Shown: positions 20,401 through 49,150 of the stretch, piece after piece | How positions within the stretch are numbered: position 1 is the first letter of the stretch | How the letters are laid out: each line of letters starts with the position of its first letter | Assembly (NCBI GenBank): GCA_964017195.1 | Contig: OZ024889.1 | Span: forward strand, 54,220,711-54,284,710 | Direction: 5' to 3' | From: Siderastrea radians | Taxonomy: Eukaryota > Cnidaria > Anthozoa > Scleractinia > Rhizangiidae | Length of the DNA stretch: 64,000 nucleotides | Made by a program: the position numbers and the translations under genes | Notes under the pieces: generated by a model | Told to the model about the DNA's origin: nothing | The model's database searches: none | What the model saw: only the letters and a program-made list of their open reading frames with translations

Positions 20401-22420
20401 CAAAAACCCGATTCGCTTATAGCTCAGTTTTAAAACTTTTTTTGCTTAAAACGTTCAATTACATTGTTAAGATAAAAGGAGAGAGAAACTAATCCATTTT
20501 GTCATAAATTAACAATAAGTCAGTTACCTTTTCATATGTGTTTTCAAGAGCCTTCTCAAGTTGATATCCATCAAAGCCGAGACAATCAGTTCTCGTTTTT
20601 GAGTGTCCAGTGCAGGTAGACTAGAATGTCGGTCCCATTGAACGGCTGCTTTTTTAAAAGTTCATAGCACACATATGTTCCTTGAAATTTTTTAAACTGA
20701 TGTCGATGTGATTGACAATTAGCTTTTAACTTTCGAAAAGAATCTGCCTGGTACTGTTTTAACAAAGACCAACATCTTCCGGAGTGATTTTGTTATCTCT
20801 TTAACCCTATCTTTTCTATTCTTTTTTGGTATTCGTAGGACATTTCTTTGACTTTGTCTCTTCCAAATAGGTGCTTTTTTGATGCTTCAAAAGCGTAGAC
20901 TCTCCACCATTATGAAATACAACGAGTACGATTAACTGCAACACTACTGTCATGTTTTGCATTGAAATGTCAAAACTTGTGATCTTCTCTGCTATGAATT
21001 CAATCAAGTTGCCTTTCTGTGAGTTCAGTTTTAGCGCTTTGCAAAATGAATAACAAATCTTTTCTCTTTTTTAAGCTTTTTGTAAATTGTGGTACGTGTG
21101 CTTCTTATCTAAGAAGGGAAGTACATACCTTTCAAGGTAAAGCAAGTCACATTGGCAACCAAAGCCAATAATGGGAATGAACGAGGACACTAATGGTTCT
21201 TTTTAAGACCCGTCCATTACTAAACTTAAAATTGTCAATTTTAACCAATGATGTTTTTAAAGAGAGCAGAAAATTTTTTAGAGGCCATCTTAATTATTTA
21301 TCAATTATATCGATGTACAAGACCACTCGAAGCTTAAACTTCAAAGAAAAACACACACATATATATTATCAGTTTAAATTTCCTGAAAACAAGGCCACTT
21401 AACTGAAAGCGATATGATTATACATAACACCCTTGTTTTTATTACTTTATTTGGTAAAATCAGCTTTTGCCCAGAACCGATTCAGAAAGCTGTGGATATC
21501 CTTCCGTTTAAGTTATGAAACGGACTTATACTTGGAGCATGCCATAAAAAGTGTCTGATTTCGAGATTTTTAGTTTTAGACGCGGTTCTCATGTATTTTT
21601 ATGAGAAATAGAGCGTTTTTTCTTAACCAATCTTTCCAGGTTAACTGCATGTACGTCCAGCAGCTGTATTGCGCGTTAATTGCATCATCAGCCACAGAAT
21701 TAGTTTTCTAGGTGAAGTCACCTTAAACTCCGCTCAAAATGGTGGAAAATCATTGAAAACATAAACGCAATAACGCTATTATTCATATTGACGCTTGTGG
21801 AGCGCTTGAAAGTTAGCTCGCACTTCGTATAATACGAGAACCAGTTTATTTTTCTTTACGTTAATTGTCGCCAAACAGATAACATCAACGGGAAGGAAAC
21901 AGGATCTTTCAATTATATAGACTGATCGCTCTAAACATTAAACGAAACTGTTTCTTCTCCTAACACATTATAAAACCCTTAGGAAAGGTCTGCCACTTCA
22001 TGCTAACAATAAAAATACTTCTATTCAAAATCAATGCTACAATTCCAATATTCAATAGCGCACACGCCTCCGCCAACGCTCTTGTTTCAGCTGCTTGACC
22101 CATGAGATCCAATAAAACGGTATTATCATTTCACATAAAACGCGGAAAGTATGTTTAGTGCCAATTGATTATTCTAGTTTGATGACAAAGAGGAAAAATA
22201 ACGGTGAAACTGGCCAGGCATCAGAGAGCACGTGCACGAGAGAAGCCGCGCGATGCAGTGTTCAAAAGCATGGAAGCCGGTAACAGCGGAGAACTGTTTC
22301 GAAGAGTCGCTACGGAAAAACACCAAAACATGTCCATTATAATCGACTATACATGTACCTAACTATATGCGTACCTGTTTTGTTGTAAAAGCTCTACGAA
22401 ACGTAAGTAAGTCGAATTAG
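17405..22420. repeat. Segmental duplication, copy B (inside intron 1)
   Basis: This is the partner of 6965-11095 in the same orientation, lying wholly within intron 1 of the 14387-22994 gene. It is somewhat longer, mainly through small insertions. No exon conserved between the copies was found. Its position suggests that copy A was intron 1 of a former neighbouring paralogue whose exons were lost or replaced by the LINE and DIRS elements. Confidence 0.78.
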
Positions 22421-28560: not shown

Positions 28561-28979
28561 GCACGCGGGCCCTCCTATTCACATTCGCCCCTGAAAGGCC
28601 AAATACTTTTTGTTCTTAGGCAGCACGGACTTGCGAGATCACGAACCAACAAACGCAAAAATACGGATCTGTGTTGCAGTCAATTCGCATATTTAGTACA
28701 GTCACCTAATGTAAAACAAAACTTATATCTGGTATTAGAGTTATTTACGGTTACATGTATTGTATTTAAAATGTGCAAATCTGTACAAAAAAAAGAGGTT
28801 CACAAACAACAATAAAGAATACAAACAGAGATACGACTGCTGTAACATACAGGCTATGAAACAGCCAGTAGTTTTTAATACTAGAAATTGATGGTTCCTG
28901 GTGAAGAATATCGGTTCAGTGCATATCTGTTACTGACCAGGACTCAGGCAAACACTGAAAAGCACAAATTATTGGCTGT

Positions 28980-30245
28980 AAAGCGAGTAATAATTACGCA
29001 TACTTTGGTAAGAACGAATAACACGTGCAGGGTCAGAGATCACACCTGCAAGACACTATTTCCAATGGCAATTATTGTCCAGTGGTATAAATCCTCTTCA
29101 TTGGCACGGGGGATAACTAATGTCACAATGTGCAACCTAAAGAGACACGAGGCGTTTGAGATTTAAGTCGCACTGCAGCTGATGTAGCGCAAATTACTAT
29201 AAAAACATGTAAAGCTGTTTCCATCATATCTGTATGCCCCAAAAAAAGAAAAGAAAAAGAACTAGTGTTTTCGATCATCAGTGACTGGTCGCAACTCAGT
29301 TAAGTTAGTAACTTTTCATGAAATAATGAACACCACACGCGCTCTCTAATTGGTTAATAACTCTTTGGAGGCGGTAGCAAATTTATATATATGGCATTTA
29401 GTTCACGAGAGAAATAGAATAATTTTTTCCTAGGTTCTGTTACCTTGGTTCTGTAAACTATGGTAACCCTGGTGCGTTTCCACGCTTTTTCTTGTTTCCC
29501 AAACTACTTTCACTCGTGATACGCATATCGATATGGTTAAACGGACAGCGTTTTCTTTTCCTCAAATGGAAAGATGTAATGAAAATTTACTCTTTCTTTT
29601 GCGAAATATTAATAAAACATCAAAATATTTAATTACGTTTGCACATTTAGTTACGGCAAATTGTATTGTTTATCTCATATATGATTATTTCATATATTCG
29701 CTTCCATTTATTTCATTATTGAACAACAAAAAAAGTCCAGGCATACCACACACTTTTTGATTTGTGTTGCTATTTCTTAATAGGAGAAAGTGAAACTTCG
29801 TACGCGATTTTAATCCTTTTGAGTCATCTTGTTTGTTGATGTCTGGCAACACGAGTGCTGCTGCGCTGATTGATGTCAATGTCACGCTCGACATTGCGAA
29901 ATCTCTAAGCGTATTATTATGTCACGTCTCTGTACGGAGTCACGTCATGTTGGTTTTGCAGTCAAAACAAACTCGTGCAGCGAAATGTTTTGCTTACTTG
30001 CGGTAAAAAACTCAAAAAATTTTAACACTTAAAGATATGCCCGGCTGTGCGGTTTTAAGGAAGACATTTGTGGTTATGCCTTTGATAAAGCGTTTGAATG
30101 TAAGTGTAAGACATCCTGCATATTCCGCAGTCCCTGAATTGACTCGGCGGCTGACTATACAGGGTTGATGGCTGGGAGAGACAGTACTTTGTTTTCAGAG
30201 AAGAGATAGAAGGGAAACGGCTGAATTTTCAGAGTACCTTTGTAG
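28980..30245. repeat. Duplicated-locus unit U1 (short)
   Basis: The block from GCGAGTAATAATTACGCATA (28983), through the GTGGTATAAATCC site (29090) and the CRE-like module, to about 30.2 kb is followed immediately by U2. U2 repeats it from 30253 with roughly 90 percent identity by eye. The spacing of equivalent points is about 1185 bases. A short frame present in both units (29533 and 30744, MERCNENLLFLLRNINK) is interrupted differently in each, so it is not convincing as a gene. Confidence 0.85.
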
Positions 30246-33130
30246 CACTGCAATTATTGTCAAGTGGTATAAACCCTCTGGATTGGCACGGGGAATAACT
30301 AATGTCACAATGTGCGACCTAAAGAGACACGACGCGTTTGAGATTTAAGTCGCACTGCAGCTGATGTGGCGCAAATTACTATAAAAACATGTAAAGCTGT
30401 TTCCTTCATATCTGTTTGCCCCAAAAAAGAAAAGAAAAAGAACTAGTGTTTTCGACCATCAGTGACTGGTCGCAACTCAGTTAAGTTAAAGTAACTTTCC
30501 ATGAAATAATAAACACCACACACGCACTGTAATTGGTAAATAACTCTTTGCAGACGGTAGCAAATTTATTAATTTTATATGGCATCAAGTTCACGAGAGA
30601 AATAGAAAAAATTCTTTTCTAAGTTCTGTTACCTTGGTTCTGTAAAGTTGTGTTTCCACACTTTTTCTTGCTTCCCAAACTACTTTTACTCGTGATACGC
30701 ATATCGATATGGTAAAACGGATAGCGTTTTCTTTCATTCTCAAATGGAAAGATGTAATGAAAATTTACTGTTTCTTTTGCGAAATATTAATAAAACGTCA
30801 AAATATTTAATTACGTTTGCACATTTAGTTACGGCAAATTGTATTGTTTATCTCATATATGATTATTTCATATATTCGCTTCCATTTATTTCATTATTGA
30901 ACAACAACAAAAAAAAGTCCAGGCATGCAGCATACTTTTTGATTTGTGCTGCTGTTTCGTAATAGGAGAAAGTGAAACTTCGTACGCGATTTTAATCGTC
31001 ATCTAGTTTGTTGACGTCTGGCACACGAGTGCTGATTGACGTCAATGTCACGCTTGACATTGCGAAATCTCAAAGCGTGTTGTTATGTCACGTCTCTGTA
31101 CGGAGTCACGTCATGTTGGTTTTGCAGTCAAAACAAACTCGTGCAGCGAAATGTTTTGCTTACTTGCGGTAAAAAACTCAAAAGATTTTAAAACACTTAA
31201 AGGTCCTTAAAGATGTGCCCGGCTGTGCGGTTTTAAGGAAGACATTTGTGGTTACCCTTTTGATAAAACGTTTGAATGTAAGTGTAAGAGATCCCGCATA
31301 TTCCGCAATCCATGAATTGACTCGGCGGCTGAATATACAGGGCTGATCGCTGGGAGAGACGACAGTACTTTGTTTCCAGAGAAAAGATAGAAGGCAAACG
31401 GTTAAATTTTCAGAGTGCCTTTGTAACTTCTTGCACGTACAACTGATTTATATTTTTTAAATTACGTTTTTGTTTGCCAGTTATATACAGTGCTAGTTTC
31501 CATTTGCCAGTTTCTACAGTCTATTGGGACTGTGCCTTGTGGAGCGTATAAAATAAATTAAACTTGCAACGGTTTTAGAGTTTTTTCAAAGCGAAAGAAA
31601 ATGGACCAAGAGAGCTATTTCCAACGCAATATCTGTTTCGACTCGGGGAAATATCTCTGAATTAAATAGTTTCGTGGTTTTCTGTAATTTTGTTATCGTT
31701 GTGTTTTGTAGCGAGATTTTATTTAATATTTGTAAAGTTATTTAAGATTATTTTGTTGTTATTTTCCTTTTAGTCAAACCATATTCTGTAATAAAAGATT
31801 GAGTTTGGAGTTCCTCCGAGTCAGTAGTGCAATAACCTTTCTGTAAGCTTTTGAACTGGAAGCGTTAAGTAGTTCACAAGGAACTGGTACTTCCACTGAT
31901 CGCTTAATATGCTTTTCGTCTCCGTAACATTGTAAAACGGTTTCTATTTCACGTTTTATCCAAGCTTCGCAAACAGTAACCAGATAGTAATAGAAGTATG
32001 GTGCTCTTAAAGTTTGCTGATACCCATCCTCTTCGGAAGTTTCACAAGTGGCTACGTCAGGCGGTGGTGGCAGCCGATTTACGTTGTTCGAAAATAAGGA
32101 AAACTGAAATGTCCTGTTTAGTTGAGGACATAGAAATGAGACCAAAGGACGGCTAATCTCCAATATACGATAAGAGTTTCAAAGGGCAGCATTTCATCTT
32201 TGACACAGAGAAGTGGGTCCCAGAGGTTTTTCTAGTTTTCTTTTTCTTTCTTTGTTTATGTTCTTTTCTTTGTTCACTCGCAGAACGAGATATACTGAAT
32301 TGTTCTGTTTTTCCCGAACAAGCTTAGTCGATAAGTTACCGTTTGGAGCACCATTTGGCAAAATTTTTTAACTTGCGCGAGCGATACGGATAAATTGAGA
32401 GATGTTCAGATGAAAACTGCGCGCGTCTAGGGCAACCAATCCTCTCCGAGTATGAATCAACACGCACGGAGCAGGGAACTGAACATATGAATGCGTTTTA
32501 GTGTTCTGGGATAAGGCTTTTCCAGTTTATTTAGAGCAACTAATGTCACACTCGAAAAAAAAAAAAAGAAAAGAAAAAAACCCCTCGAAAATCGTACTAA
32601 GGTTAGATTTCACAGGGTGATCGTTTAAAGGTCATTAAATTTTCGCATTCCTTAAGAATTCCTTTGGAAGCGTGGGACAACATCCGGATCAATGTCTCGG
32701 GGCACCAGGCTACTACAATTTGATAGTTCCAATTTGATGGGAACGATCAGTCCATTTTATTAAGAAATTAAACTCAGCTTTCCGGTCTCCGTGATTTGAG
32801 AATGTTTCCAAAATTTGATGAGACGGTAGTCGAGATTCAGGGAACTATTTCTTATCTGAAGACAGATGAACAGTCGCCAGTTTCACTTCCGATCGCTGAT
32901 TCTTGGCTCATGAAAGTACTTTCCGCAAGTTTCGTTCAGTGTTCTTTCAAGTGGCGTGCACCGAGTCATTATTTCTCACCACTTTCGAGCACTCCCCAAA
33001 GCGGAACCCGAGTCGGTGGTAGTGAGAGATCTGGGTGGTCTAGTCAGTTGTCTAGTGGCCTTTTTTTAGGTGATTACTGCGTCATCACATCACGGCAGGG
33101 GATGTGAGTTTGTTAGACTGATTCCATTAG
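30246..33130. repeat. Duplicated-locus unit U2
   Basis: U2 is colinear with U1 for its first ~1.19 kb, then with the region 46.06-47.2 kb for the rest. The rest includes the exon at 31774-32103, the AACAAGCTT.GTCGATAAGTTACC block at 32319 and the TTTCCGGTCT.CGTGATT block at 32779. It is the most complete unit of the locus. Confidence 0.8.
31774..32103 (-). CDS. Last exon of an unrecognised gene, locus unit U2
   Basis: On the minus strand an acceptor (GGACATTTCAG) opens a phase-0 frame of 109 residues ending at 31774. It begins FSLFSNNVNRLPPPPDVATC and continues ETSEEDGYQQTLRAPYFYYY, then VCEAWIKREIETVLQCYGDE and a basic C terminus. The first 25 codons are repeated in the paralogous exon at 46067-46141, where the exon stops at a perfect donor. 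Here that donor is lost and translation reads through. No domain was recognised. Coding conservation between the two copies, including two-codon-compensated changes, supports it being a real exon. Confidence 0.45.
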   Translation of the reverse strand, partial: FSLFSNNVNRLPPPPDVATCETSEEDGYQQTLRAPYFYYYLVTVCEAWIKREIETVLQCYGDEKHIKRSVEVPVPCELLNASSSKAYRKVIALLTRRNSKLNLLLQNMV

Positions 33131-33139
33131 CTGTACTGA

Positions 33140-33247
33140 CGCGAGTAATAATTATGCGTACTTCCAGTAAGAAAGAAAAGCACGTGCATGGTCAGAGACC
33201 TGACCTGTAAGGCACTATTTCCACTGGCAATTATTGTCAAGTGGTAT
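33140..33247. repeat. Duplicated-locus unit U3, left piece
   Basis: This piece matches 28983-29096 of U1 and ends in GTGGTAT, one copy of a 7-bp target duplication. The rest of U3 is displaced by element E1/E2: its next 276 bases are inverted at 39823-40098 and it resumes at 45119. Confidence 0.85.
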
Positions 33248-36200
33248 CACAGGCAGCCCAAGCTCACGCCTCGAGAAAGCGAGGAATTTATTAATTATTT
33301 ATGGTTCTCGAGCCGGGACGTGACCTTCGAGAGAGACCGGTATTGGGTTGCAAGCGGCCGTTAACAATTTGAGACTTTGTATGGGGAATAATGTATCGTC
33401 GATTTCCAACGTTAAATAAAACTAAATTTCAACATTTTTTAGTGAAATAAATAACACTAATTTACCTCTTGCGTCTTTGTGTGTTTTTGGGGCTTATTCC
33501 ATCGTTTTGGGCCTTCTTTGTCGCGACTGTTACTACCTTCATAGACCGGTATTGGGTAACAAGCGGCCGTTGACAATTTGAGACTTTGTATGGGGAATAA
33601 AATATCGTCGATTTCCAACGTTAAATAAAACTAAATTTCAACATTTTTTTAGTGCAGTGAATAAAACTAACTTATCTCTTGCGTCTTTGCGTGTTTTTTG
33701 GGCTTATTCCATCGTTTTGGGCCTTCTTTGTCCCCGGTCTTTGTAACGACTGTTACTACCTTCATAAGACGAAGTCAAGGCACCACACCGTTTCAGGCTG
33801 GAGATTCGAACTTGTGTACTCGAAGGCGGTTTGCAGCCAGAAAATCCATCGTATCGCAGATTTTTTCAGCCAGAGGTAAAGCTCTATGATCGCCACACCT
33901 TGTAAAATGTTCCTTCGCCAAATATCCCCGCGCATTTTCCTGAAAATGAGCTTTTTCTCACTCCATGTCCAAAATCCCTTCTATCGGCGAACGCTCATGA
34001 TTTTGAAAATCGACACGAGGCTTGGGTCCGAGATCAAATCTCTCTCGACCCAGGGTGGTACAGTCAATTCATGTACAGCACTTACCCCATCCCGACAGTG
34101 GCATCACGCACAGCACTTTTGTATCGATCAACCAATGACAGAGCGAGGCGACGCGACGGGATACGGGAGATTAACAAACGGCTGAATTTGAAAACCGTCA
34201 AGACAGTGGTGGTTGGACACGGTTCGCAAAGCATGATGGGGCTATCGATCGATTCGAGCTCAGTTGCAATGAACCTTCGTACTGTGCGGATCTCGAAGAG
34301 CAAAAAAAAATTCAACTACAAGAGCTGGAAATAACAAAGGTGGAAGTTTCTCCGTTTCTTGTGGTCTAATTATCCTTTGTTTACATCTGAATTTTTGATG
34401 TAACATTTTAACGGCTGGTTTCACGCATTGATCGATTGAACGCGTACACGTGGAGACTTCAATCCCGGGTTTATCAGGAATAAGCCTCTTTAGTAACTTA
34501 TATGTGCAAACATCTGACAATGAATAGCCTCTTGGGCCATGAAGGACTTACTTCCATTCATCGAAAGTGAAAACACAGATGCCTGGCTTTGTGAGGTCTT
34601 GTAATTGCTACAGTTATGTGAAATCGTAAGTTTTGCCCGATGGATAAGCGTCGAGTGCGTGTCATGAAAAACCTTACGAATGTTCATTTTATAGCATTAA
34701 CAGTCCTTTAACTTCCAGGGTATCCAAAAGCTTCTGTTTCTCAAAAATTCCGTTGATGCAGGATGTAGTAATCCTGAAGGGCTTGTCTGAAATTATACTT
34801 TCACAGCTTAGCTAAACAAGGCTGTATTAAAATATCATTGTTCAAATTGCCAGCTGTCAATATGAATTAATTAATTGATTTGTTTTGCGTTTGAAAGTAA
34901 CTGATGCTGACAAAGTTAGTCTGTGATTGAACGAGAATTCCACTTTCTTTTGCAGTGGACATGAAAATCTGTCTTTAGAAAATTTAACAGAGCTCTCTGT
35001 TCAGCCTGTAGAATGTGTGACAATATTATATACAGTGCACCCATATTTTTTCTCAGCTACTTTAATAAAAGCATTGACTCATTTACCCCCAAGGATATCA
35101 AGCAGAAAATAGTTTTTACCCCTTAATACAGGGTTGTTGGGCGCTTTGCACTGATTTTCACGACAAAATTATCCAGGTCATAGAAAACCTGTTTAGCTTG
35201 GATCTTTTTAAAACTGGTGAAGCACATTAGAGCAATACATCCAATGTCATTTCTACAAATCTGTCAATTCTTTCAATGAGTAAAGTGATATTTTTATAAC
35301 TATTAGAATGCTGTCCCAGCTACAGAACAAACTCTGACTAAATTTGACCTTTGAGCATTTACCCCTTGAAAACAATGGCCCAGTCCTTCATTTGTTTACT
35401 TCAGACCTCTACCTTGTTGGAATTTCAATGGTGGACCCAGAGGAGGGGCCAAGGGTATCCCCCCTTTTTGTTCAAAATAGCAATATACATGAACAAAACA
35501 ATTACTATTGAGTCATATTTTTACTCCATACTACAACGAAGCAGAGTGCAGATTAGCTTGTGTACAACAGCATACTCCACTCAGAAAGCATCTGATTATT
35601 TTTGTTGATTTACTCATAGTCAGAATATAGTACAGAATAATACCAAGATATAACTCCACAAAAGTTTTGTATTTTGTTGTCTCCCCACACCCACCATTAA
35701 ACTTGTACCCCACCCTCCATGAAAGTCTGGACTCACCACTGCGCACCAAGTCTGCCTGTTAAGTCGAGTAACAGAAACTTTAGGGATGTTTACATAATAC
35801 AGGTTTGAGTTTCATTCCCTCTTATGGCTCTGTATAACTTTGTTTACATGATATCAGGGGCAAAAACGTGTACCATAATCATGTAGACACAGTAAGACCA
35901 CTCATTTTGGTGTGAAATCTGTCTCCTGGAAGACAATTCAGTAGAAAACAAATAAGGATTGATATCAATGTAAAAAAATTGATGAAGAATGCGAAAGTTG
36001 TGAGTTCCATTTAAAAAGGGATATTTAATCAATTCACAGTTCTCAACCCTTTACAGTTGATCCACGTCACGCGTGAACGGAAACCTCAGCACGTGATCCG
36101 AGTCTTCAAATAAACAAGCTACTTTCAGTGACATAACGGAGATCGCAAGGGAAATATTGAAGATCTCATTGAAATTTCCGAAAATGGCTTCTATCTTTGT

Positions 36201-36522
36201 AGAAGCAAAGGGTTGTGACGGGACAAAACTTTGTTTTATCGAGAGACCGCGTTATTTACTGGGTTCGCTTCTCGTCAGTGGTTCAAAAACGTTTTAGGCG
36301 ACTAGAAGGAGGTGAAATTATGTCAATTATTTTGCTGACGCGTGATTCCTGTTTCAACCGAACGAGAACAAACCTTGGAGCTGAACGCTTGTGTAAGAAC
36401 GGTAGCTCCGAAGGAAGTGGACGAAAACCAAGATACATCTGCCGTGTCAAGCAATTACTGATGACAGTTTTTCCTAGTTGCGAGGTTGATTAAAGACAAA
36501 GCCGACGCTTCGTCCACAGTTA

Positions 36523-36945
36523 ACCAAAGCGTAATGTGAGTTGTTTGTATGGAGCTGAAATTCGATCCAAAATGTAAATGGTCAGTATTCCGTGCAAAAT
36601 ACCTAAAAAACGAAATAGGTTTGAAGACCATTACCTGTTGTGTGTTTGCTGTGTTTTTGCCACTTTTCCGAGCTTCTGGAGGCCGTTTGGGGCGATTTTC
36701 TGTTTAACGGTCGATGCGACATTTGTCAAAGTAAAGCCAGTACGTGACAAGACGTCGCTTCGACCTAAACAGAATATCGCCCCAAACGGCGTCCAGCAGT
36801 TCGGAAAAGCGGTAAAGACACAGCAAACACACAAAGATAAGGTTTTTCAAACTCTATTTTGATTTTTAGGTATTTTCCACGGAAAACTGCCGATTATTTT
36901 CAATCGAATTTCAGCTCCATACAAACTCTCATATTACGCTTTGGT
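36523..36945. repeat. Fold-back segment inside the Tc1-like element
   Basis: The ends ACCAAAGCGTAAT and ATTACGCTTTGGT are inverted copies. Pairing continues inward: GTATGGAGCTGAAATTCGAT is matched near 36905, and TGTGTTTGCTGTGT is matched near 36825. The whole 423 bp could fold into a long imperfect hairpin. Confidence 0.8.
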
Positions 36946-37402
36946 GACCTGTGCTTCGTCTATTGCATAACCTACTGCTCAACAATCTTTCGCGATTTTC
37001 CCATCCATATATCCTAGGTTTCGCTAGTTTGAACAATTCAATAAATTCTACATGCAACGTCGTCTGAAAGTTTAGAAGGATAACTTCGTCCCCCTTGACT
37101 GAACGCCTCACATGTACTGAACGTTTCATGATGTCGAATGATACAATAAACAGTGAATAAACAGCGCCAGGAGTTGCACGAGCTGCTGTGGAGATCGCTT
37201 TCGGTCCCTGTCCAGTCAAATAACGATCAACTATTCCTCTTCTCGTTTCCTTGTGGAGAGGCCTACATGGCCTGTTCTTCCGACCTAAGGCATTAACATA
37301 ACCAGGTCTGAACATTTCGAAAAATCTGTGACAGATTCGAAATCTCCTTTCGATTTTCGAAATCCCTCTCTGAATCTCAAGAAACACAAGGCGAGTGCCC
37401 AA
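36929..37402 (-). pseudogene. Transposase-like N-terminal fragment
   Basis: A 157-codon frame on the minus strand contains RPLHKETRRGIVDRYLTGQG followed by PKAISTAARATPGAVYSL. This is the length and spacing of a paired-type helix-turn-helix that Tc1-like transposases use to bind their terminal repeats. No DDE/DDD catalytic motif follows, and the normal family protein is about 340 residues, so this is a truncated remnant. The start codon is uncertain. The right part of the element is occupied by the inverted-repeat insert at 36523-36945, which may have displaced the catalytic half. Confidence 0.45.
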
Positions 37403-38770
37403 ATATGGAGAACGTGACTCGTCACGTTGTTTTGAATTTTAGAGTTTCCGTTCACGCGTGACGTGGATCAACTGTAATAGGTCTCAATAGCTCTAATTGT
37501 TATCAATAACAACTAAACTGACAAATTGAAAGGGATGTTAAATCAATAATTCACAGTTCTCCCTCAATAGCTCTGGATTTTATTTCTTACAGCAGATGTA
37601 CCCCACTAACTTGAACCCAACCACCCTCCCAGCACCTGCTCACAACTAAATTGAAGTGAAAATATTTTTGTTTTCCTTTGTTGATCTTGCTCACTAATTT
37701 ATTATTAGCTATCTCAAATTTTTGATTTCTCAAACAGTTTTTGTTTTCTCTTGCATGTCTAAGATAGCACCCTGAATTTCCAGTCTGAGTTACTGATCAA
37801 TACTGAATTTTTTTAGCTTTCTCAATGGTTCACTGCTGCTTAGGGGATCTTAGGAAACCAATCCACAACAGATGATGTGACTACATATTAAGTCCCTAAT
37901 GCCCAAATAATTTTGGTCATTTCAGCAAACAAAATGTGATTCTTGAAAGTTTGTTGCATACAGGGCAACAGAGCAGACTGATGAATCCATTTTGCCTCCT
38001 AACCTAAAGACAACAAAACAAAGAAGGGAAAACACTCAATTGGGATGCCACACCATACTATTGACACTTGTCATAATTAAAATAAGACGATCACTCGCGT
38101 TAATATTTCGCGGGTAATTTTCACATCTCGCAGCGTGAGAGTAATATTGGAGAGAAAATTCGACAACTTAAACAACGCATAATTCTCAAACTAGAGGAGC
38201 GCTATCGGGCGCTATATGATTTTATAAATTAAAGCAAATTTATCCATCTTAATCTTCGCGTAAAATAAACGGTTTTAGATTTTTGGGTTAGCCTACAAAT
38301 TCTCAAAATGTAAGACCTACTCAAATATCATGAAAGCACACGTTGCTCGATCCACCTACAACGAAATTGTGCTCAAACTTGACTTACAAAAGATGACCAG
38401 ATCCAAAAATTTCAAGACATCTAGATACAAACCAATCCTAATTATTCTTGTTAAATGTAAGTTGCACTGGGGACAAATAGCACGTTAAAATGACAAGAAG
38501 TGAAGCTCACATTCCCGTGAAAGGCCGCCATGTTGATTTCTCGTCCCCGTTAAGAGACTGCTCGTGATTGGCTAATAAAACGATCCACCATGCCTTTCGG
38601 ACCGTGTCCAACCACCACTGCCGTCAAGATATGTTTTGAAATTTATGCTTTTTTTACAATATATATAACTCTCAATTTCTCATAAATTCTCACCCAAATG
38701 CGAATTTGAGTTTGTTTATTGCAAATGGATAAGTTACGATTTCCCGTTTCGCTGCCGCACGTTAACAGAC

Positions 38771-38843
38771 CTTTGCGAGATTTCGCTCTTTTCGGCGAGG
38801 AATCTTGCTCTATTTCGAGAGGTCTCTTCACCTTTGAAAACAT
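38771..38843 (-). other. Exon-like frame with bipartite basic motif (E1 copy)
   Basis: This is the reverse-strand counterpart of the E2 frame at 41077-41149 with the same peptide start MFSKVKRPLEIEQD and the same AAAG/GTCTGT donor. It is retained intact in both element copies. Confidence 0.3.
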
Positions 38844-39822
38844 TTTGTATCTCTCTCGGAAAACCCCGCAGAAATATTCAAATTCAGCCGTTTGTTTATC
38901 TCCCGTATCCGGTCACGTCACCTCGCTCTGTCATTGGTTGATCGATACAATAGTGCTGTGCGTGATGCCACTGTCGGGATGGGGTAAGTGCTGTACATGA
39001 ATTGACTGTACCACCCTGGGTCGAGAGAGATTTGATCTCGGACCCAAGCCTCGTGTCGATTTTCAAAATCATGAGCGTTCGCCGATAGAAGGGATTTTGG
39101 ACATGGAGTGAGAAAAAGCTCATTTTCAGGAAAATGCGCGGGGATATTTGGCGAAGGAACATTTTACAAGGTGTGGCGATCATAGAGCTTTACCTCTGGC
39201 TGAAAAAATCTGCGATACGATGGATTTTCTGGCTGCAAACCGCCTTCGAGTACACAAGTTCGAATCTCCGGCCTGAAACGGTGTGGTGCCCTGACTTCGT
39301 CTTATGAAGGTAGTAAAAGTCGTGACAAAGACCGGGGACAAAGAAGGCCCAAAACGATGGAATAAGCCCAAAAAACACACAAAGACGCAAGAGATAAGTT
39401 AGTTTTATTCATTTCACTAAAAAAATGTTGAAATTTAATTTTATTTAACGTTGGAAATCGACGATATTTTATTCCCCATACAAAGTCTCAAATTGTCAAC
39501 GGCCGCTTGTTACCCAATACCGGTCTATGAAGGTAGTAACAGTCGCGACAAAGAAGGCCCAAAACGATGGAATAAGCCCCAAAAACACACAAAGACGCAA
39601 GAGGTAAATTAGTGTTATTTATTTCACTAAAAAATGTTGAAATTTAGTTTTATTTAACGTTGGAAATCGACGATATATTATTCCCCATACAAAGTCTCAA
39701 ATTGTTAACGGCCGCTTGCAACCCAATACCGGTCTCTCTCGAAGGTCACGTCCCGGCTCAGAGAACCATAAATAATTAATAAATTCCTCGCTTTCTCGAG
39801 GCGTGAGCTTGGGCTGCCTGTG

Positions 39823-40098
39823 CTATCTCCAAAGAGTTATTAACCAATTACAGAGCGCGTGTGGTGTTTATTATTTCATGAAAAATTATTCACTTAAAAG
39901 TTACGTCCAGTTATTGATGATCGTCTAGTTTTTTGTTTTTCTTTTTTTTTTTTTTGCAGCAAACAGATATGACAGCTACAGCTTTACATGTTTTTATAGC
40001 AATTTGCGCCACATCAGCTGAAGTATGCCGCGCGTCTCCTTAGATCGCACATTGTGACATTAGTTATCCCCCGTGACAATGAAGGGAGTTTATACCAC
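39823..40098 (-). repeat. Inverted piece of locus unit U3 between E1 and E2
   Basis: Read in reverse complement this matches 29090-29370 of U1 and 30265-30555 of U2. In native order it should run from GTGGTAT to GAGATAG between the left piece of U3 (ending 33247) and the right piece (starting 45119). It therefore sits inverted relative to both flanks. Confidence 0.92.
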
Positions 40099-43000
40099 CA
40101 CAGGTAGCCCAAGCTCACGCCTCGAGAAAGCGAGGAATTTATTAATTATTTATGGTTCTCCGAGCCGGGACGTGACCTTCGAGAGAGACCGGTATTGGGT
40201 TGTAAGCGGCCGTTAACAATTTGAGACTTTGTATGGGGAATAATATATCGTCGATTTCCAACGTTAAATAAAACTAAATTTCAACATTTTTTAGTGAAAT
40301 AAATAACACTAATTTACCTCTTGCGTCTTTGTGTGTTTTGGGGGCTTATTCCATCGTTTTGGGCCTTCTTTGTCGCGACTGTTACTACCTTCATAGACCG
40401 GTATTGGGTAACAAGCGGCCGTTGACAATTTGAGACTTTGTATGGGGAATAAAATATCGTCGATTTCCAACGTTAAATAAAACTAAATTTCAACATTTTT
40501 TAGTGCAATGAATAAAACTAACTTATCTCTTGCGTCTTTGTGTGTTTTTTGGGCTTATTCCATCGTTTTGGGCCTTCTTTGTCCCCGGTCTTTGTCACGA
40601 CTGTTACTACCTTCATAAGACGAAGTCAAGGCACCACACCGTTTCAGGCCGGAGATTCGAACTTGTGTACTCGAAGGCGGTTTGCGGTCAGAAAATCCAT
40701 CGTATCGCAGATTTTTTCAGCCAGAGGTAAAGCTCTATGATCGCCACACCTTGTAAAATGTTCCTTCGCCAAATATCCCCGCGCATTTTCCTGAAAATGA
40801 GCTTTTTCTCACTCCATGTCCAAAATCCCTTCTATCGGCGAACGCTCATGATTTTGAAAATCGACACGAGGCTTGGGTCCGAGATCAAATCTCTCTCGAC
40901 CCAGGGTGGTACAGTCAATTCATGTACAGCACTTACCCCATCCTGACAGTGGCATCACGCACAGCACTATTGTATCGATCAACCAATGACAGAGCGAGGC
41001 GACGTGACCGGATACGGGAGATAAACAAACGGCTGAATTTGAATATTTCTGCGGGGTTTTCCGAGAGAGATACAAAATGTTTTCAAAGGTGAAGAGACCT
41101 CTCGAAATAGAGCAAGATTCCTCGCCGAAAAGAGCGAAATCTCGCAAAGGTCTGTTAACGTGCGGCAGCGAAACGGGAAATCGTAACTTATCCATTTGCA
41201 ATAAACAAACTCAAATTCGCATTTGGGTAAGAATTTATGAGAATTTGAGAGTTATATATATTGTAAAAAAAAGCATAAATTTCAAAACATATCTTGACGG
41301 CAGTGGTGGTTGGACACGGTCCGAAAGGCATGGTGGATCGTTATATTAGCCAATCACGAGCAGTCTCTTAACCGGGACGAGAAATCAACATGGCGGCCTT
41401 TCACGGGAGTGTGAGCTTCACTTCTTGTCATTTTAACGTGCTATTTGTCCCCAGTGCAACTTACATTTAACAAGAATAATTAGGATTGGTTTGTATCTAG
41501 ATGTCTTGAAATTTTTGGATCTGGTCATCTTTTGTAAGTCAAGTTTGAGCACAATTTCGTTGTAGGTGGATCGAGCAACGTGTGCTTTCATGATATTTGA
41601 GTAGGTCTTACATTTTGAGAATTTGTAGGCTAACCCAAAAATCTAAAACCGTTTATTTTACGCGAAGATTAAGATGGATAAATGTGCTTTTATAAAATCA
41701 TATAGCGCCCGATAGCGCTCCTCTAGTGTGAGAATTATGCGTTGTTTAAGTTGTCGAATTTTCTCTCCAATATTACTCTCACGCTGCGAGATGTGAAAAT
41801 TACCCGCGAAATATTAACGCGAGTGATCTTCTTATTTTAATTATGAAAAGTGTCAATAGTATGGTGTGGCATTCCAATTGAGTGTTTTCCCTTCTTTGTT
41901 TTGTTGTCTTTAGGTTAGGAGGCAAAATGGATTCTTCAGTCTGCTCTGTTGCCCTGTATGCAACAAACTTTCAAGAATCACATTTTGTTTGCTGAAATGA
42001 CCAAAATTATTTGGGCATTAGGGACTTAATATGTAGTCACATCATCTGTTGTGGATTGGTTTCCTAAGATCCCCTAAGCAGCAGTGAACCATTGAGAAAG
42101 CTAAAAAAATTCAGTATTGATCAGTAACTCGGACTGGAAATTCAGGGTGCTATCTTAGACATGCAAGAGAAAACAAAAACTGTTTGAGAAATCAAAAATT
42201 TGAGATAGCTAATAATAAATTAGTGAGCAAGATCAACAAAGGAAAACAAAAATATTTTCACTTCAATTTAGTTGTGAGCAGGTGGTGGGAGGGTGGTTGG
42301 GTTCAAGTTAGTGGGGTACATCTGCTGTAAGAAATAAAATCCAGAGCTATTGAGGGAGAACTGTGAATTATTGATTTAACATCCCTTTCAATTTGTCAGT
42401 TTAGTTGTTATTGATAACAATTAGAGCTATTGAGACCTATTAAAGGGTTGAGAACTGTGAATTGATTAAATATCCCTTTTTAAATGGAACTCACAACTTT
42501 CGCATTCTTCATCAATTTTTTTACATTGATATCAATCCTTATTTGTTTTCTACTGAATTGTCTTCCAGGAGACAGATTTCACACCAAAATGAGTGGTCTT
42601 ACTGTGTCTACATGATTATGGTACACGTTTTTGCCCCTGATATCATGTAAACAAAGTTATACAGAGCCATAAGAGGGAATGAAACTCAAACCTGTATTAT
42701 GTAAACATCCCTAAAGTTTCTGTTACTCGACTTAACAGGCAGACTTGGTGCGCAGTGGTGAGTCCAGACTTTCATGGAGGGTGGGGTACAAGTTTAATGG
42801 TGGGTGAGGGGAGACAACAAAATACAAAACTTTTGTGGAGTTATATCTTGGTATTATTCTGTACTATATTCTGACTATGAGTAAATCAACAAAAATAATC
42901 AGATGCTTTCTGAGTGGAGTATGCTGTTGTACACAAGCTAATCTGCACTCTGCTTCGTTGTAGTATGGAGTAAAAATATGACTCAATAGTATTTGTTTTG

Positions 43001-45118
43001 TTCATGTATATTGCTATTTTGAACAAAAAGGGGGGGATACCCTTGGCCCCTCCTCTGGGTCCACCATTGAAATTCCAACAAGGTAGGGGTCTGAAGTAAA
43101 CAAATGAAGGACTGGGCCATTGTTTTCAAGGGGTAAATGCTCAAAGGTCAAATTTAGTCAGAGTTTGTTCTGTAGCTGGGACAGCATTCTAATAATTATA
43201 AAAATATCACTTTACTCATTGAAAGAATTGACAGATCTGTAGAAATGACATTGGATGTATTGCTCTAATGTGCTTCACCAGTTTTAAAAAGATCCAAGCT
43301 AAACAGGTTTTCTATGACCTGGATAATTTTGTCGTGAAAATCAGTGCAAAGCGCCCAACAACCCTGTATTAAGGGGTAAAAACTATTTTCTGCTTGATAT
43401 CCTTGGGGGTAAATGTGTCAATGCTTTTATTAAAGTAGCTGAGAAAAAATATGGGTGCACTGTATATAATATTGTCACACATTCTACAGGCTGAACAGAG
43501 AGCTCTGTTAAATTTTCTAAAGACAGATTTTCATGTCCACTGCAAAAGAAAGTGGAATTCTCGTTCAATCACAGACTAACTTTGTCAGCATCAGTTACTT
43601 TCAAACGCAAAACAAATCAATTAATTAATTCATATTGACATCTGGCAATTTGAACAATGATATTTTAATACAGCCTTGTTTTAATAGCTAAGCTGTGAAA
43701 GTATAATTTCAGACAAGCCCTTCAGGATTACTACATCCTGCATCAACGGAATTTTTGAAAGCTTTTGGATACCCTGGAAGTTAAAGGACTGTTAATGCTA
43801 TAAAATGAACATTCGTAAGGTTTTTCATGACACGCACTCGACGCTTATCCATCGGGCAAAACTTACGATTTCACATAACTGTAGCAATTACAAGACCTCA
43901 CAAAGCCAGGCATCTGTGTTTTCACTTTCGATGAATGGAAGTAAGTCCTTCATGGCCCAAGAGGCTATTCATTGTCAGATGTTTGCACATATAAGTTACT
44001 AAAGAGGCTTATTCCTGATAAACCCGGGATTGAAGTCTCCACGTGTACGCGTTCAATCGATCAATGCGTGAAACCAGCCGTTAAAATGTTACATCAAAAA
44101 TTCAGATGTAAACAAAGGATAATTAGACCACAAGAAACGGAGAAACTTCCACCTTTGTTATTTCCAGCTCTTGTAGTTGAATTTTTTTGCTCTTCGAGAT
44201 CCGCACAGTACGAAGGTTCATTGCAACTGAGCTCGAATCGATCGATAGCCCCATCATGCTTTGCGAACCGTGTCCAACAACCACTGTCTTGACGGTTTTC
44301 AAATTCAGCCGTTTGTTTATCTCCCGTATCCCGTCGCGTCGCCTCGCTCTGTCATTGGTTGATCGATACAACAGTGCTGTGCGTGATGCCACTGTCGGGA
44401 TGGGGTAAGTGCTGTAATGAATTGACTGTACCACCCTGGGTCGAGAGAGATTTGATCTCGGACCCAAGCCTCGTGTCGATTTTCAAAATCATGAGCGTTC
44501 GCCGATAGAAGGGATTTTGGACATGGAGTGAGAAAAAGCTCATTTTCAGGAAAATGCGCGGGGATATTTGGCGAAGGAACATTTTACAAGGTGTGGCGAT
44601 CATAGAGCTTTACCTCTGGCTGAAAAAATCTGCGATACGATGGATTTTCTGGCCGCAAACCGCCTTCGAGTACACAAGTTCGAATCTCCAGCCTGAAACG
44701 GTGTGGTGCCTTGACTTCGTCTTATGAAGGTAGTTACAGTCGTGACAAAGAAAATCGACGATATTTTATTCCCCATACAAAGTCTCAAATTGTCAACGGC
44801 CGTTTGTTACCCAATACCGGTCCATGAAGGTAGTAACAGTCGCGACAAAGAAGGCCCAAAACGATGGAATAAGCCCAAAAAACACACAAAGACGCAAGAG
44901 GTAAATCAGTGTTATTTATTTCACTAAAAAATGTTGAAATTTAGTTTTATTTAACGTTGGAAATCGACGATACATTATTCCCCATACAAAGTCTCAAATT
45001 GTTAACGGCCGCTTGCAACCCAATACCGGTCTCTCTCGAAGGTCACGTCCCGGCTCGAGAACCATAAATAATTAATAAATTCCTCGCTTTCTCGAGGCGT
45101 GAGCTTGGGCTGCCTGTG
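40099..45118 (-). mobile_element. Long-TIR element E2 (family unnamed)
   Basis: The ends are CACAGGTAGCCCAAGC at 40099 and the inverse finishing CCTGTG at 45118. The terminal repeats (about 40099-41040 and 44295-45118) match those of E1, and the right one has lost roughly 100 or more bases near 44750. The interior is the reverse complement of the E1 interior without the Tc1-like insertion. Flanks are ATACCAC at left and GAGATAG at right. No transposase gene is visible. Confidence 0.85.
41077..41149 (+). other. Exon-like frame with bipartite basic motif (E2 copy)
   Basis: ATG at 41077 starts MFSKVKRPLEIEQDSSPKRA, whose basic clusters (KVKRP, PKRAKSRK) look like a bipartite nuclear localisation signal. 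A plausible donor GTCTGT follows AAAG at 41149; if unspliced the frame runs to 41349. Situated just inside the long terminal repeat, it could be the first exon of the element's own lost transposase or a captured host exon. Confidence 0.3.
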
Positions 45119-47235
45119 GAGATAGTAGCAAATTACGTATTTGGCATTTAGTTCACGAGAGAAATAGAAAACTTTCTTTCCTAGTTTCTGTAAAGTTATT
45201 GTATTAATTCTGGTGCCTTTCCACGCTCTTTCTTGTTTTCCCAGACTACTAAGCGGATAACGTTTTCTTTTTGTCAAATGGAAAGATATAACGACTGTTT
45301 TCTTTTTCTCACCTGTGAAACATTAATAAAACGTCAAACTAGTACTTTTCCACATATAGTTATGTCAAATTGTATTGTTTATTTCATATATGATTATTTC
45401 ATATATTCGCTCTCATTTATTTCATTATTAAACAAAAAAGAAAAAGAACTGAGTGCAGGCATACAACACATGTTGGCTTTTGTTGCTGTTTCTTTAGGAA
45501 AATACTGAAGCTTCGTGCGCGATTTTAACCCGGTAAGCTGTAATTTGTTGACGTCCGGGCAACAGGAGTGCTGATAAGTACCGTGACCTGTTTTCAAAAA
45601 CCGCAATGACGTTAATGGCACGCTTGACATTGCGAAATCTCAAAGCGTGTTATTATGTCACGTCTCTGTACGGAGTCATGTCATGTTGGTTTTGCAACTC
45701 GAGCGGGAGAATGTTTTGCTTACTTGCGGTTAAGACTAAAAACAACTTTAACCCTTACACTGTAGCGATATGATCCGGCTGTGCGATTTTTAGGAAGACA
45801 TTTGTGGCTACGAGGCTTCTGATAAAACGTGTAAACGTAAACGCAAAAAAATTAATTCAGAAGAGTTTGGTAGATAGCCAGGCCGGCACATATTCCACAA
45901 TCCATGAATTGACCTGACGGTAGCCTGTTCCAGGCTCTCAGATAGTTGGGACGGCACGAAAATTAGAAAGGGAACGCGAAAATAAGACGCGCGGGATCTG
46001 GAAAAATGGGGGCAGTGGCGGGGGCTTTTCCCGACAGTGCGTGGAGCCCTTAAGTTTGTTACTTACATCCTCTTCGGAAGTTTCACGAGTAGCTACGTCA
46101 GGCAGCGGTGGTGGTCGATTGTGTTCGGAAAATAAAGAAAACTGATAAGTCCTGATTAGTTGAGGACATAGAAATGCGAACTATGGGACGACTAATCTCC
46201 AGTTTCAAAGGGCTGAATTTTTTTTCTCGGCACAGAGAAGTGTGTTTCCCTCAATAGCAAAGTTATAATCCTTCCACTTTGGAAACGTACCATGGTCCCG
46301 GATGTTTTTTCCCCTTTTCTTAAATGTTCTTTTTTTGTCCACACGTGGACCGAGATTATTGCTCCGCTTTCCCCGAACAAGCTTCGTCGATAAGTTACCT
46401 TTTGGAGAATCTTTTCACGTGCATTCGTTTTGATTTGTAACGGTAAACTTTCGCGAGCGATACGGATATAAACGAGAGATGCTCGGGTAAATAGAATGAA
46501 CGCACCAATCTCGTGCAACCAATCGTACCAGTTCGAATCAACACGCACGGAGCAAAGATAATGAAAAAGTGAATCCCTTCAATCCATGGATAGAACTTGT
46601 CCAGTTGATTTAAAGCGACTAATATCACACTCGAATCGTACTGAGGGTGAGTTTTTCGGTAAAGGTCAATACATAGGCGTATAACAAATTGTTCCTTTCG
46701 AAGCGGGTGGGACAACAATCAATGTTAAGGGGTAACAGGCTACACTATGTACTACAAGTCTACAACTTGTTTTATCGTGGATTTGATAAATTATAAACCT
46801 TGGAAGTGTCCCAATTTGATAGGGACGTTATCCAATTTTATTCAGAAATTACATTCAGCTTTCCGGTCTTCGTGATTCTCATGTCTCCTAAATTTGATGA
46901 AACGGTAGTTGAGGTTGAGGGAACTATTTCTTGCCAAGGGCAGATGAACAGTTGCCAGCCAGTTTATTTCTGATCCCTGATTTTTGGCTCACGCATTTAC
47001 TTTCCGCAAGTTTCGTTCAAAGCACTTTATAGTGGCGGGTACCGAGTTATTAATTCTCAGTACTTTTCGTTAGGGATTTATTAAGTAGTGGTTTTGTAGC
47101 ATTAAAACCCAAGCCACCTTAGTGATGGTATCTGCGCGGTCTAGACAGTTCTCTAGTGGCCTTCTCAGGCGGTGACTGTTGGATTGTTTGGATTAATATG
47201 GACCACACCGAGGGGGCATGTGAGTTTCTTAGACC
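45119..47235. repeat. Duplicated-locus unit U3, right piece
   Basis: This resumes U3 after the elements: 45119-45900 matches 29370-30130, and 46060-47200 matches 32020-33100. It contains a CRE-like module (GACGTTA variant at 45606) and the exon at 46067-46141. An insertion-like block at 45917-46050 beginning AGCCTGTTCCAGGCTCTCAG is a repeat family also seen at 63816. Confidence 0.8.
46067..46141 (-). CDS. 25-codon exon of an unrecognised gene, locus unit U3
   Basis: The acceptor TTATCAG and the perfect donor GTAAGT define a 75-base exon, phase 0 at both ends. It encodes FSLFSEHNRPPPLPDVATRE and then TSEED. The paralogue at 31774-32103 shares this peptide but lacks the donor. Neighbouring exons could not be identified. 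The exon is recognisable only through the pair of copies. Confidence 0.45.
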
Positions 47236-47604
47236 AATTCCATCTCATCACAGCTTTCATCATTGAAAGTTTGCTGCAAATTCATTGAAATCTTCTCTCA
47301 CATGTCTATATGTTTTCCAAATGACAAGGCGATCCATTGTTCTAAAGTTGGCGATATGTTGCAATATTTAGGGACTTTATATTCTAATTCACATTCAATA
47401 AAATATTGCTTTTCTCTATTTTAATTCACGCATATAACCATTTACATTCAACACTTCATATTTATCCAACATTTTCTATTTTGAAATTATGAATATATGA
47501 AGTTCATATATTTGAACTGCGGAATAAAGAAATAAATGTAAAGAAGATCCTCGCAGTTATTAACGCAACTTATGCAGTTGCGAAAAGAAAGCCTGAAAAA
47601 ATCA

Positions 47605-47675
47605 GGCTTGCCGGGACTCGAACCCTGACCTCTGCGATACCGGTGCAGCGCTCTAACCAATTGAGCTAACAAGCC
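47605..47675 (-). tRNA. tRNA-like, array copy 1
   Basis: The cloverleaf has acceptor GGCTTGT/GCAAGCC, a 4-bp D stem GCTC/GAGC, a 17-base anticodon arm and a TTCGAGT T loop. The A box (TAGCTCAATTGG) and B box (GGTTCGAGTCC) match Pol III consensus, and a T-run terminator (TGATTTTTTC) follows. By position the anticodon reads GGT (Thr), but the base before it is C rather than the near-invariant T. The last anticodon-stem pair and one T-stem pair are mismatched, and the stem register is strained. It may be a tRNA-derived Pol III repeat and not a working tRNA. Confidence 0.6.
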
Positions 47676-47851
47676 AACTGGGAGCTGGTCATTAAATTGG
47701 TTCGTAATATACCCGGGAAAGATGAAGATGAAATTATGAATATATGAAGTTCATATATTTGAACTGCGGAATAAAGAAATAAATGTAAAGAAGATCCTCG
47801 CAGTTATTAACGCAACTTATGCAGTTGCGAAAAGAAAGCCTGAAAAAATCA

Positions 47852-47922
47852 GGCTTGCCGGGACTCGAACCCTGACCTCTGCGATACCGGTGCAGCGCTC
47901 TAACCAATTGAGCTAACAAGCC
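47852..47922 (-). tRNA. tRNA-like, array copy 2
   Basis: Identical to copy 1, one 247-base period to the right, with the same internal promoter boxes, terminator and structural oddities. Confidence 0.6.
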
Positions 47923-48098
47923 AACTGGGAGCTGGTCATTAAATTGGTTCGTAATATACCCGGGAAAGATGAAGATGAAATTATGAATATATGAAGTTCA
48001 TATATTTGAACTGCGGAATAAAGAAATAAATGTAAAGAAGATCCTCGCAGTTATTAACGCAACTTATGCAGTTGCGAAAAGAAAGCCTGAAAAAATCA

Positions 48099-48169
48099 GG
48101 CTTGCCGGGACTCGAACCCTGACCTCTGCGATACCGGTGCAGCGCTCTAACCAATTGAGCTAACAAGCC
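48099..48169 (-). tRNA. tRNA-like, array copy 3
   Basis: Identical in the tRNA-like part. The 5' flank differs by one base (GATCATT for GGTCATT). Confidence 0.6.
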
Positions 48170-48345
48170 AACTGGGAGCTGATCATTAAATTGGTTCGTA
48201 ATATACCCGGGAAAGATGAAGATGAAATTATGAATATATGAAGTTCATATATTTGAACTGCGGAATAAAGAAATAAATGTAAAGAAGATCCTCGCAGTTA
48301 TTAACGCAACTTATGCAGTTGCGAAAAGAAAGCCTGAAAAAATCA

Positions 48346-48416
48346 GGCTTGCCGGGACTCGAACCCTGACCTCTGCGATACCGGTGCAGCGCTCTAACCA
48401 ATTGAGCTAACAAGCC
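48346..48416 (-). tRNA. tRNA-like, array copy 4
   Basis: Identical to copy 1. It is the last complete copy in this orientation before the turn of the array. Confidence 0.6.
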
Positions 48417-48591
48417 AACTGGGAGCTGGTCATTAAATTGGTTCGTAATATACCCGGGAAAGATGAAGATGAAATTATGAATATATGAAGTTCATATATT
48501 TGAACTGCGGAATAAAGAAATAAATGTAAAGAAGATCCTCGCAGTTATTAACGCAACTTATGCAGTTGCGAAAAGAAAGCCTGAAAAAATC

Positions 48592-48604
48592 AGGCTTGCC
48601 GGGA
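48592..48604 (-). pseudogene. tRNA-like, truncated copy 5 at the array turn
   Basis: Only the 3' acceptor end (AGGCTTGCCGGGA on the plus strand) remains before the sequence switches to inverted TTAATAACTGCG repeats. This marks the fold-back point. Confidence 0.75.
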
Positions 48605-48754
48605 TTAATAACTGCGCCGATAATAACTGCGAGGATCTTCTTTACATTTATTTCTTTATTCCGCAGTTCAAATATATGAACTTCATATATTCATAATTTC
48701 ATCTTCATCTTTCCCGGGTATATTACGAACCAATTTAATGACCAGCTCCCAGTT

Positions 48755-48825
48755 GGCTTGTTAGCTCAATTGGTTAGAGCGCTGCACCGGTATCGCAGAG
48801 GTCAGGGTTCGAGTCCCGGCAAGCC
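48755..48825 (+). tRNA. tRNA-like, array copy 6 (opposite strand)
   Basis: Same sequence as copies 1-4 on the plus strand, with a T6 terminator after position 48827. Confidence 0.6.
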
Positions 48826-49001
48826 TGATTTTTTCAGGCTTTCTTTTCGCAACTGCATAAGTTGCGTTAATAACTGCGAGGATCTTCTTTACATTTATTT
48901 CTTTATTCCGCAGTTCAAATATATGAACTTCATATATTCATAATTTCATCTTCATCTTTCCCGGGTATATTACGAACCAATTTAATGACCAGCTCCCAGT
49001 T

Positions 49002-49072
49002 GGCTTGTTAGCTCAATTGGTTAGAGCGCTGCACCGGTATCGCAGAGGTCAGGGTTCGAGTCCCGGCAAGCC
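49002..49072 (+). tRNA. tRNA-like, array copy 7 (opposite strand)
   Basis: Identical to copy 6, 247 bases further. The unit breaks off at about 49150 into the AT-rich minisatellite. Confidence 0.6.
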
Positions 49073-49150
49073 TGATTTTTTCAGGCTTTCTTTTCGCAAC
49101 TGCATAAGTTGCGTTAATAACTGCGAGGATCTTCTTTACATTTATTTTCT

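Follow-up and report, generated by a model that had tools for sequence, protein, structure and literature searches.

An inverted 276-bp segment with exchanged target duplications between two opposite composite transposons of Siderastrea radians

Transposon-made inversions and the Siderastrea locus

The polymorphic chromosomal inversion 2z3 of Drosophila buzzatii was made by the transposon Galileo, and it carries crosswise 7-bp duplications and chimeric element copies (PMC2775673). A comparable record is present in the scleractinian Siderastrea radians, in a stretch of 64,000 nucleotides (assembly GCA_964017195.1, contig OZ024889.1, positions 54,220,711 to 54,284,710, forward strand) that is called the window here and whose own numbering is used throughout. 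Two composite transposons of opposite orientation, E1 and E2, enclose 276 bp of inverted DNA, and the 7-bp duplications at their borders match crosswise between the two elements. The observation of crosswise duplications and a turned middle is confirmed; it is real, clean, and well recorded. An inversion mediated by transposons, with the 7-bp target duplications exchanged, was claimed in an earlier note on this DNA and is well supported by the flanking 7-mers, the alignments to intact units, the genome matches of the middle, and the comparison of E1 with E2. The kind is already known, as Galileo inversions with the same exchange of 7-bp duplications have been published. No anthozoan counterpart was found in the literature by a search without synonyms, which carries little weight.

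For 2z3, Delprat and colleagues describe the outcomes of recombination and of hybrid-element insertion as strikingly similar, and the chimeric copies decided for recombination (PMC2775673). The Siderastrea locus resembles 2z3, as described there, in that opposite copies with long terminal inverted repeats (TIRs) flank the inverted segment, the 7-bp duplications are exchanged, further elements are nested inside, and the uninverted sequence has one target copy per site. In contrast, the inverted segment here is 276 bp, the elements are sister copies, chimerism is not seen, and it is paralogous units, not alleles, that show the uninverted state. Of the features by which PMC2775673 recognizes an inversion made by recombination, opposite homologous copies, exchanged duplications, and uninverted sequence with single targets are found at this locus; a further feature, chimerism of both copies, has 0 of 25 variable sites in its favor, but sister copies could hardly show it.

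A second system is the alternative transposition of maize Ac/Ds, in which inversions can result directly from the joint use of transposon ends that belong to two copies. According to PMC8225341, new duplications at the inversion breakpoints are a product of reversed-ends transposition, which can invert segments of various lengths, whereas elements with non-identical flanks and inverted inner duplications are assigned to recombination. The locus is comparable to Ac/Ds, as presented in that source, in that transposon ends of two copies may take part in an inversion, and differs from reversed-ends transposition, which would show new breakpoint duplications.

Crosswise duplications and the turned middle

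E1 (33248..39822, plus strand, 6575 bp) consists of an outer element, O, that carries a second element, K, and a Tc1-like insert. E2 (40099..45118, minus strand, 5020 bp) consists of O with K in the orientation opposite to E1 and is without the Tc1-like insert. Read directly in the window, E1 is flanked by GTGGTAT on the left (33241-33247) and CTATCTC on the right (39823-39829), and E2 by ATACCAC on the left (40092-40098) and GAGATAG on the right (45119-45125). The left flank of E1 is the exact reverse complement of the left flank of E2, and the same holds for the two right flanks, so the four 7-mers and their crosswise matching are exact as the earlier note gave them. Once uncrossed, both target duplications of O (7 bp, two sites) are exact. 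Chance as their source is rejected at 9.6e-5 per match for two random 7-mers of the window, and both matches together would arise at about 9e-9 if independent.

The elements break up a third unit in a small array of repeats, of which the first two units are intact (unit 1, 28971..30103; unit 2, 30246..31321; both plus strand). The left piece of the broken unit (33126..33247, plus strand) ends in GTGGTAT and is 83% identical to 28971-29088 of unit 1; it matches unit 2, which starts there, over its last 26 bases only (96%). The middle piece (39823..40098, minus strand), bounded by CTATCTC and ATACCAC, aligns in reverse to both intact units: its reverse complement, which the note had proposed to align with 29090-29370, matches 29082-29370 of unit 1 at 79% and 30264-30554 of unit 2 at 77%, which bears out the claimed inversion. 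The right piece (45119..45840, plus strand) begins with GAGATAG; 45125-45840 is 72% identical to 29374-30103, and 45138-45840 is 72% identical to 30576-31281. The left piece, the turned middle, and the right piece thus restore the order of the intact units.

Neither target place is interrupted in the two intact units, and each unit is therefore a paralogous empty site for both insertions. GTGGTAT is present once at the first target place in 2 of 2 units. At the second place, unit 1 has the seven bases GAGGCGG and unit 2 has CAGACGG, each without an insertion and neither identical to GAGATAG. Uninverted sequence with a single target copy per site is hence found in 2 of 2 units, which are paralogues and not alleles and differ in the letters of the second target. 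Whole-genome counts refer to one assembled haplotype of 804.8 Mb in 439 contigs, in which the 276-bp middle has three matches, its own locus and the two units. At E 1e-5, a search of the surrounding 200 kb for O, K, the unit, and the Tc1-like insert gave matches to loci inside the window and no additional copy. Outside the broken unit, the stretches 32025-32985 and 46066-47066 are diverged direct repeats (68-79%), which indicates that a larger block was duplicated.

The nested elements and their single parent

E1 and E2 are opposite in orientation and collinear. Over 5014 aligned bases they show 42 mismatches, a difference of 0.84%, together with 10 indels. The earlier note had described two long-TIR elements; the long terminal repeats stand, and the nesting of O, K, and the Tc1-like insert had been missed. 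O is about 2.15 kb long, most of it a pair of inverted arms (about 945 bp each), and makes 7-bp duplications. In E1, its terminal repeat is formed by 33245-34192 and 38877-39825, inverted and 98.3% identical, and the arms contain a 209-bp tandem repeat. The left part of O in E1 (33248..34203, plus strand) comprises one such arm followed by the left 9-bp duplication of K, CCGTCAAGA (34195-34203), and the right part (38621..39822, plus strand) includes the right copy of this duplication (38621-38629). At 44752 in E2, one arm is 123 bp shorter than the aligned E1 arm, inside the internally repeated stretch.

Galileo has terminal repeats of 0.5-1.2 kb (PMC3688188, PMC4168063, PMC3573991), and TIR length is described as not reliable for classification (PMC3573991). 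O resembles Galileo and the P superfamily, as far as these sources describe them, in its long, internally repetitive terminal repeats and its 7-bp duplications, and differs in that no P-type transposase was found in six frames of the O parts in E1. Compared by hand with the Galileo target GTANTAC, the two O target sites match at 4/6 and 3/6 fixed letters (n = 2 sites). The transposase search covered 10 open reading frames (ORFs) of the window, five of them in E1 and E2, six-frame translations of the K pieces with the O ends (34190-36050 and 37475-38880), both O parts, and the Tc1-like insert. Across this scope, a paired-box match was obtained in the Tc1-like insert, and all other matches were below curated cut-offs. 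In the Pfam scan of six frames of both O parts in E1, no transposase model was found and only sub-cut-off matches occurred. A non-autonomous copy of O would also be without transposase. Viral contigs scanned for O sequence gave nothing. O is provisionally not filed as a member of the P superfamily, because no transposase is recognized, only two target sites are available, and the likeness rests on the duplication length and the arms.

K occupies 34204..38620 in E1 (plus strand; 2994 bp without the Tc1-like insert) and 41301..44286 in E2 (minus strand), with a 9-bp duplication on both sides in each. A genome search with the core 34200-36050 gave 208 candidates, of which 40 were scored and five relatives were taken for alignment. 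These five match the interior of E1 only and not the 945-bp arms, so K is a separate element with its own tips. Duplications of 9 bp flank the relatives in 4 of the 4 with both ends covered (by eye; the fifth is truncated), as they do in E1 and E2. This length is typical of Mutator-like elements (MULEs). A six-frame Pfam scan of K in E1, with the Tc1-like insert removed, gave no MULE or other transposase model; K is for this reason not filed as a Mutator-like member, and it may be non-autonomous. Fourteen K copies (L030-L039, L045, L046, L048, and L049, on contigs C94, C392, C420, C316, C42, C53, and C64) have a common 5' flank whose last 40 bases are identical. On C94 and C392 K recurs every ~28.7 kb, so that these small contigs hold it as part of a long tandem array.

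The K insertion point is the same in E1 and E2, and so is its 9-bp duplication, CCGTCAAGA; both elements therefore descend from one O+K element. A 32-base pattern across the 5' junction of O and K has two matches in the assembly at up to 3 mismatches, namely E1 and E2, and the reversed-order control pattern has none; this search covers the 5' junction in one assembled haplotype and copies within 3 mismatches. In the 5' flanks of 33 other scored K copies, the K tip (17-19 of 19 letters) stands beside unrelated sequence in 31, which are not 31 independent sites since 14 of them have one common flank, and two copies have lost that end. Searched for O, these flanks gave chance-level matches only (12 and 22 bases, E 0.5-0.65). 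With the five relatives, these make 38 other scored K copies; the 5' end of 36 allowed a judgement, and none of those is inside O. The shared K insertion with its duplication, and a junction found only at E1 and E2 in the assembly, speak against the earlier claim of two independent insertions.

The sequence of K itself points the same way. Against five outgroup copies, the 19 differences between K of E1 and K of E2 comprise 5 derived in E1, 13 derived in E2, and 1 with both letters among the outgroups, so that 18 of 19 are private to one copy. Moreover, 35 sites are common to E1 and E2 and absent from all five outgroups. The divergence between E1 and E2 is 0.64%, and that between either and the five relatives is at least 2.5%; a close K pair is not unusual in itself, as two relatives differ by 1.0%. 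From the shared insertion, the junction, and the judged K copies, either one copy gave rise to the other, or both came from a lost or unassembled parent. The second copy probably arose locally.

The extra 1421 bp of E1 (36054..37474, plus strand) are a Tc1-like insert with perfect 31-bp inverted ends and a TA duplication, and they form the largest indel between E1 and E2, with the empty site of E2 near 42441-42445. A TA duplication, inverted ends, and a paired-type domain are features of the Tc1/mariner family. The ends of the insert begin with CAGT, and a 169-aa ORF on the minus strand (36932-37438) matches the PAX-like paired-box domain PF00292 at 28.4 bits (26.5 in the frame scan; the curated cut-off is 22 bits). 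The insert is thus like Tc1/mariner in its TA duplication, perfect 31-bp ends, and paired-box-like domain, and differs in that no catalytic domain is recognized. No DDE catalytic domain was among the Pfam matches in its six frames; it is hence named Tc1-like only, and it is perhaps a deleted copy. A deletion from E2 as the source of the length difference is ruled out by the TA duplication and the inverted ends. The insert is a secondary visitor with no part in the inversion. Inside it, an imperfect palindrome (83%) spans about 440 bp at 36515-36953; its ends show no clear duplication, and it may be one more nested element.

Accounts of the inversion

The reading we favor, with roughly an even chance of being right, is that a composite was inserted, an opposite second copy was placed locally, and homologous recombination then turned the middle. 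O with nested K would have inserted in the third unit of the array. A second copy of this O+K would then have landed 276 bp away in opposite orientation by local transposition, with the donor kept. Finally, intrachromosomal homologous recombination between the inverted copies of about 5 kb would have turned the 276 bp, with an exchange of the 7-bp duplications. The separation into a copying step and a turning step, and the order of the two, are what we infer. E1 and E2 are opposite and collinear, so a crossover inside them turns only the intervening DNA, as a symbolic check confirms. The preference is a matter of judgement, since inverted repeats of 5 kb around a short loop should recombine readily. 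The copies still are such repeats, and the segment is therefore expected to keep turning; both orientations may segregate.

Several points weigh against this reading. Ends that share a duplication are grouped by 0 of 25 variable terminal-repeat sites, though sister copies could hardly show chimerism even after recombination. Of these 25 sites, 15 are private to one end and 8 group by element end, with 4 of the 8 at positions 946-950, just beyond the 945-bp repeat; of the remaining two, one site groups by present element and the other has three letters. No high-identity tract marks a crossover between E1 and E2 (the longest gap free of differences is 643 bases, P = 0.15), and no crossover boundary is seen in the terminal-repeat patterns or in the spacing of E1/E2 differences. 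Private changes are unequal, with 10 in E1 and 23 in E2 (P = 0.035), which neither model predicts. In addition, a one-step insertion of a hybrid element fits equally well in the symbolic check, with the same junction order. The orientation is taken from one assembly, without reads, and the O+K search likewise covers one haplotype and the 5' junction.

The one-step account is possible, though doubtful. It starts from one O+K present on both sister chromatids; the 5' end is cut on one and the 3' end on the other, and the mixed pair inserts 276 bp away, so that the second copy, the inverted middle, and the crosswise duplications would all result from one event. The exact observed order is obtained from either starting site in the symbolic check. 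E1 and E2 would be equal at birth, which fits the nearly wholly private divergence of K, and a composite found only at this locus in the assembly fits as well. Chimerism, which the Galileo authors give as the separating feature (PMC2775673), is not seen here. On the other side, hybrid insertion should occur less often than ordinary local transposition, and turning of a short loop between 5-kb inverted repeats should be frequent, both as matters of judgement; moreover, no transposase is recognized in O, and its capacity for such an action is putative. The earlier claim that recombination between opposite copies explains everything goes too far, as hybrid insertion yields the same order and the terminal-repeat sites give no sign of chimerism.

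It is improbable that the assembly or the joining of haplotypes is in error, with both insertions real, the 276 bp placed the wrong way round, and each element truly having matching duplications. Inverted repeats that are 99% alike are a layout prone to assembler error, and the orientation is that of the assembly. However, the locus lies on a 71.6-Mb contig of the 805-Mb, 439-contig assembly, which suggests reads longer than the 5-6.6 kb elements, and the 1.4-kb insert, 9 further indels, and 42 mismatches distinguish the copies.

It is highly improbable that, as in Galileo, members of a dispersed family inserted twice independently and then recombined ectopically. Two different 7-bp target sites, opposite orientation, and exchanged duplications agree with such a history. 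Against it, the O+K junction was found nowhere else in the assembly, no K copy judged elsewhere lies in O, and no chimerism is seen; it is viable only if the source copy is lost, too diverged for the search, or on the unassembled haplotype. Reversed-ends transposition is rejected, since by the description in PMC8225341 it would leave new duplications at the breakpoints.

Other observations and meaning of the locus

Elsewhere in the window, six tRNA-Thr genes (anticodon GGT) are called in 247-bp tandem repeats at 47482-49147, the first four of them on the minus strand and the last two on the plus strand. The GGT anticodon is unusual for nuclear tRNA-Thr. Several diverged direct matches link 7725-11021 and 18400-22352 in the same order, which suggests an old duplication of several kb. 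Among 33 relatives of an ORF near the locus, three bear an organism name, namely two from Paramuricea clavata and one from Stylophora pistillata, which agrees with an anthozoan host.

The locus is a compact record of local transposon duplication and turning of the adjacent DNA, in which the original order can be read from the intact paralogues and the succession of events from the nested elements, and the composite found only here links both copies to one parent. The single parent, and the choice between one step and two, are the points that are new over the earlier reading. As a caution, two independent insertions followed by recombination cannot be concluded from crosswise duplications by themselves. 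If the tentative one-step account is right, the locus would be a natural hybrid insertion, in which the ends of one composite on two sister chromatids produced the second copy and the inversion of 276 bp together, with all junctions kept. If both orientations segregate instead, the two sister transposons would hold between them a small natural switch of the flip-flop type.

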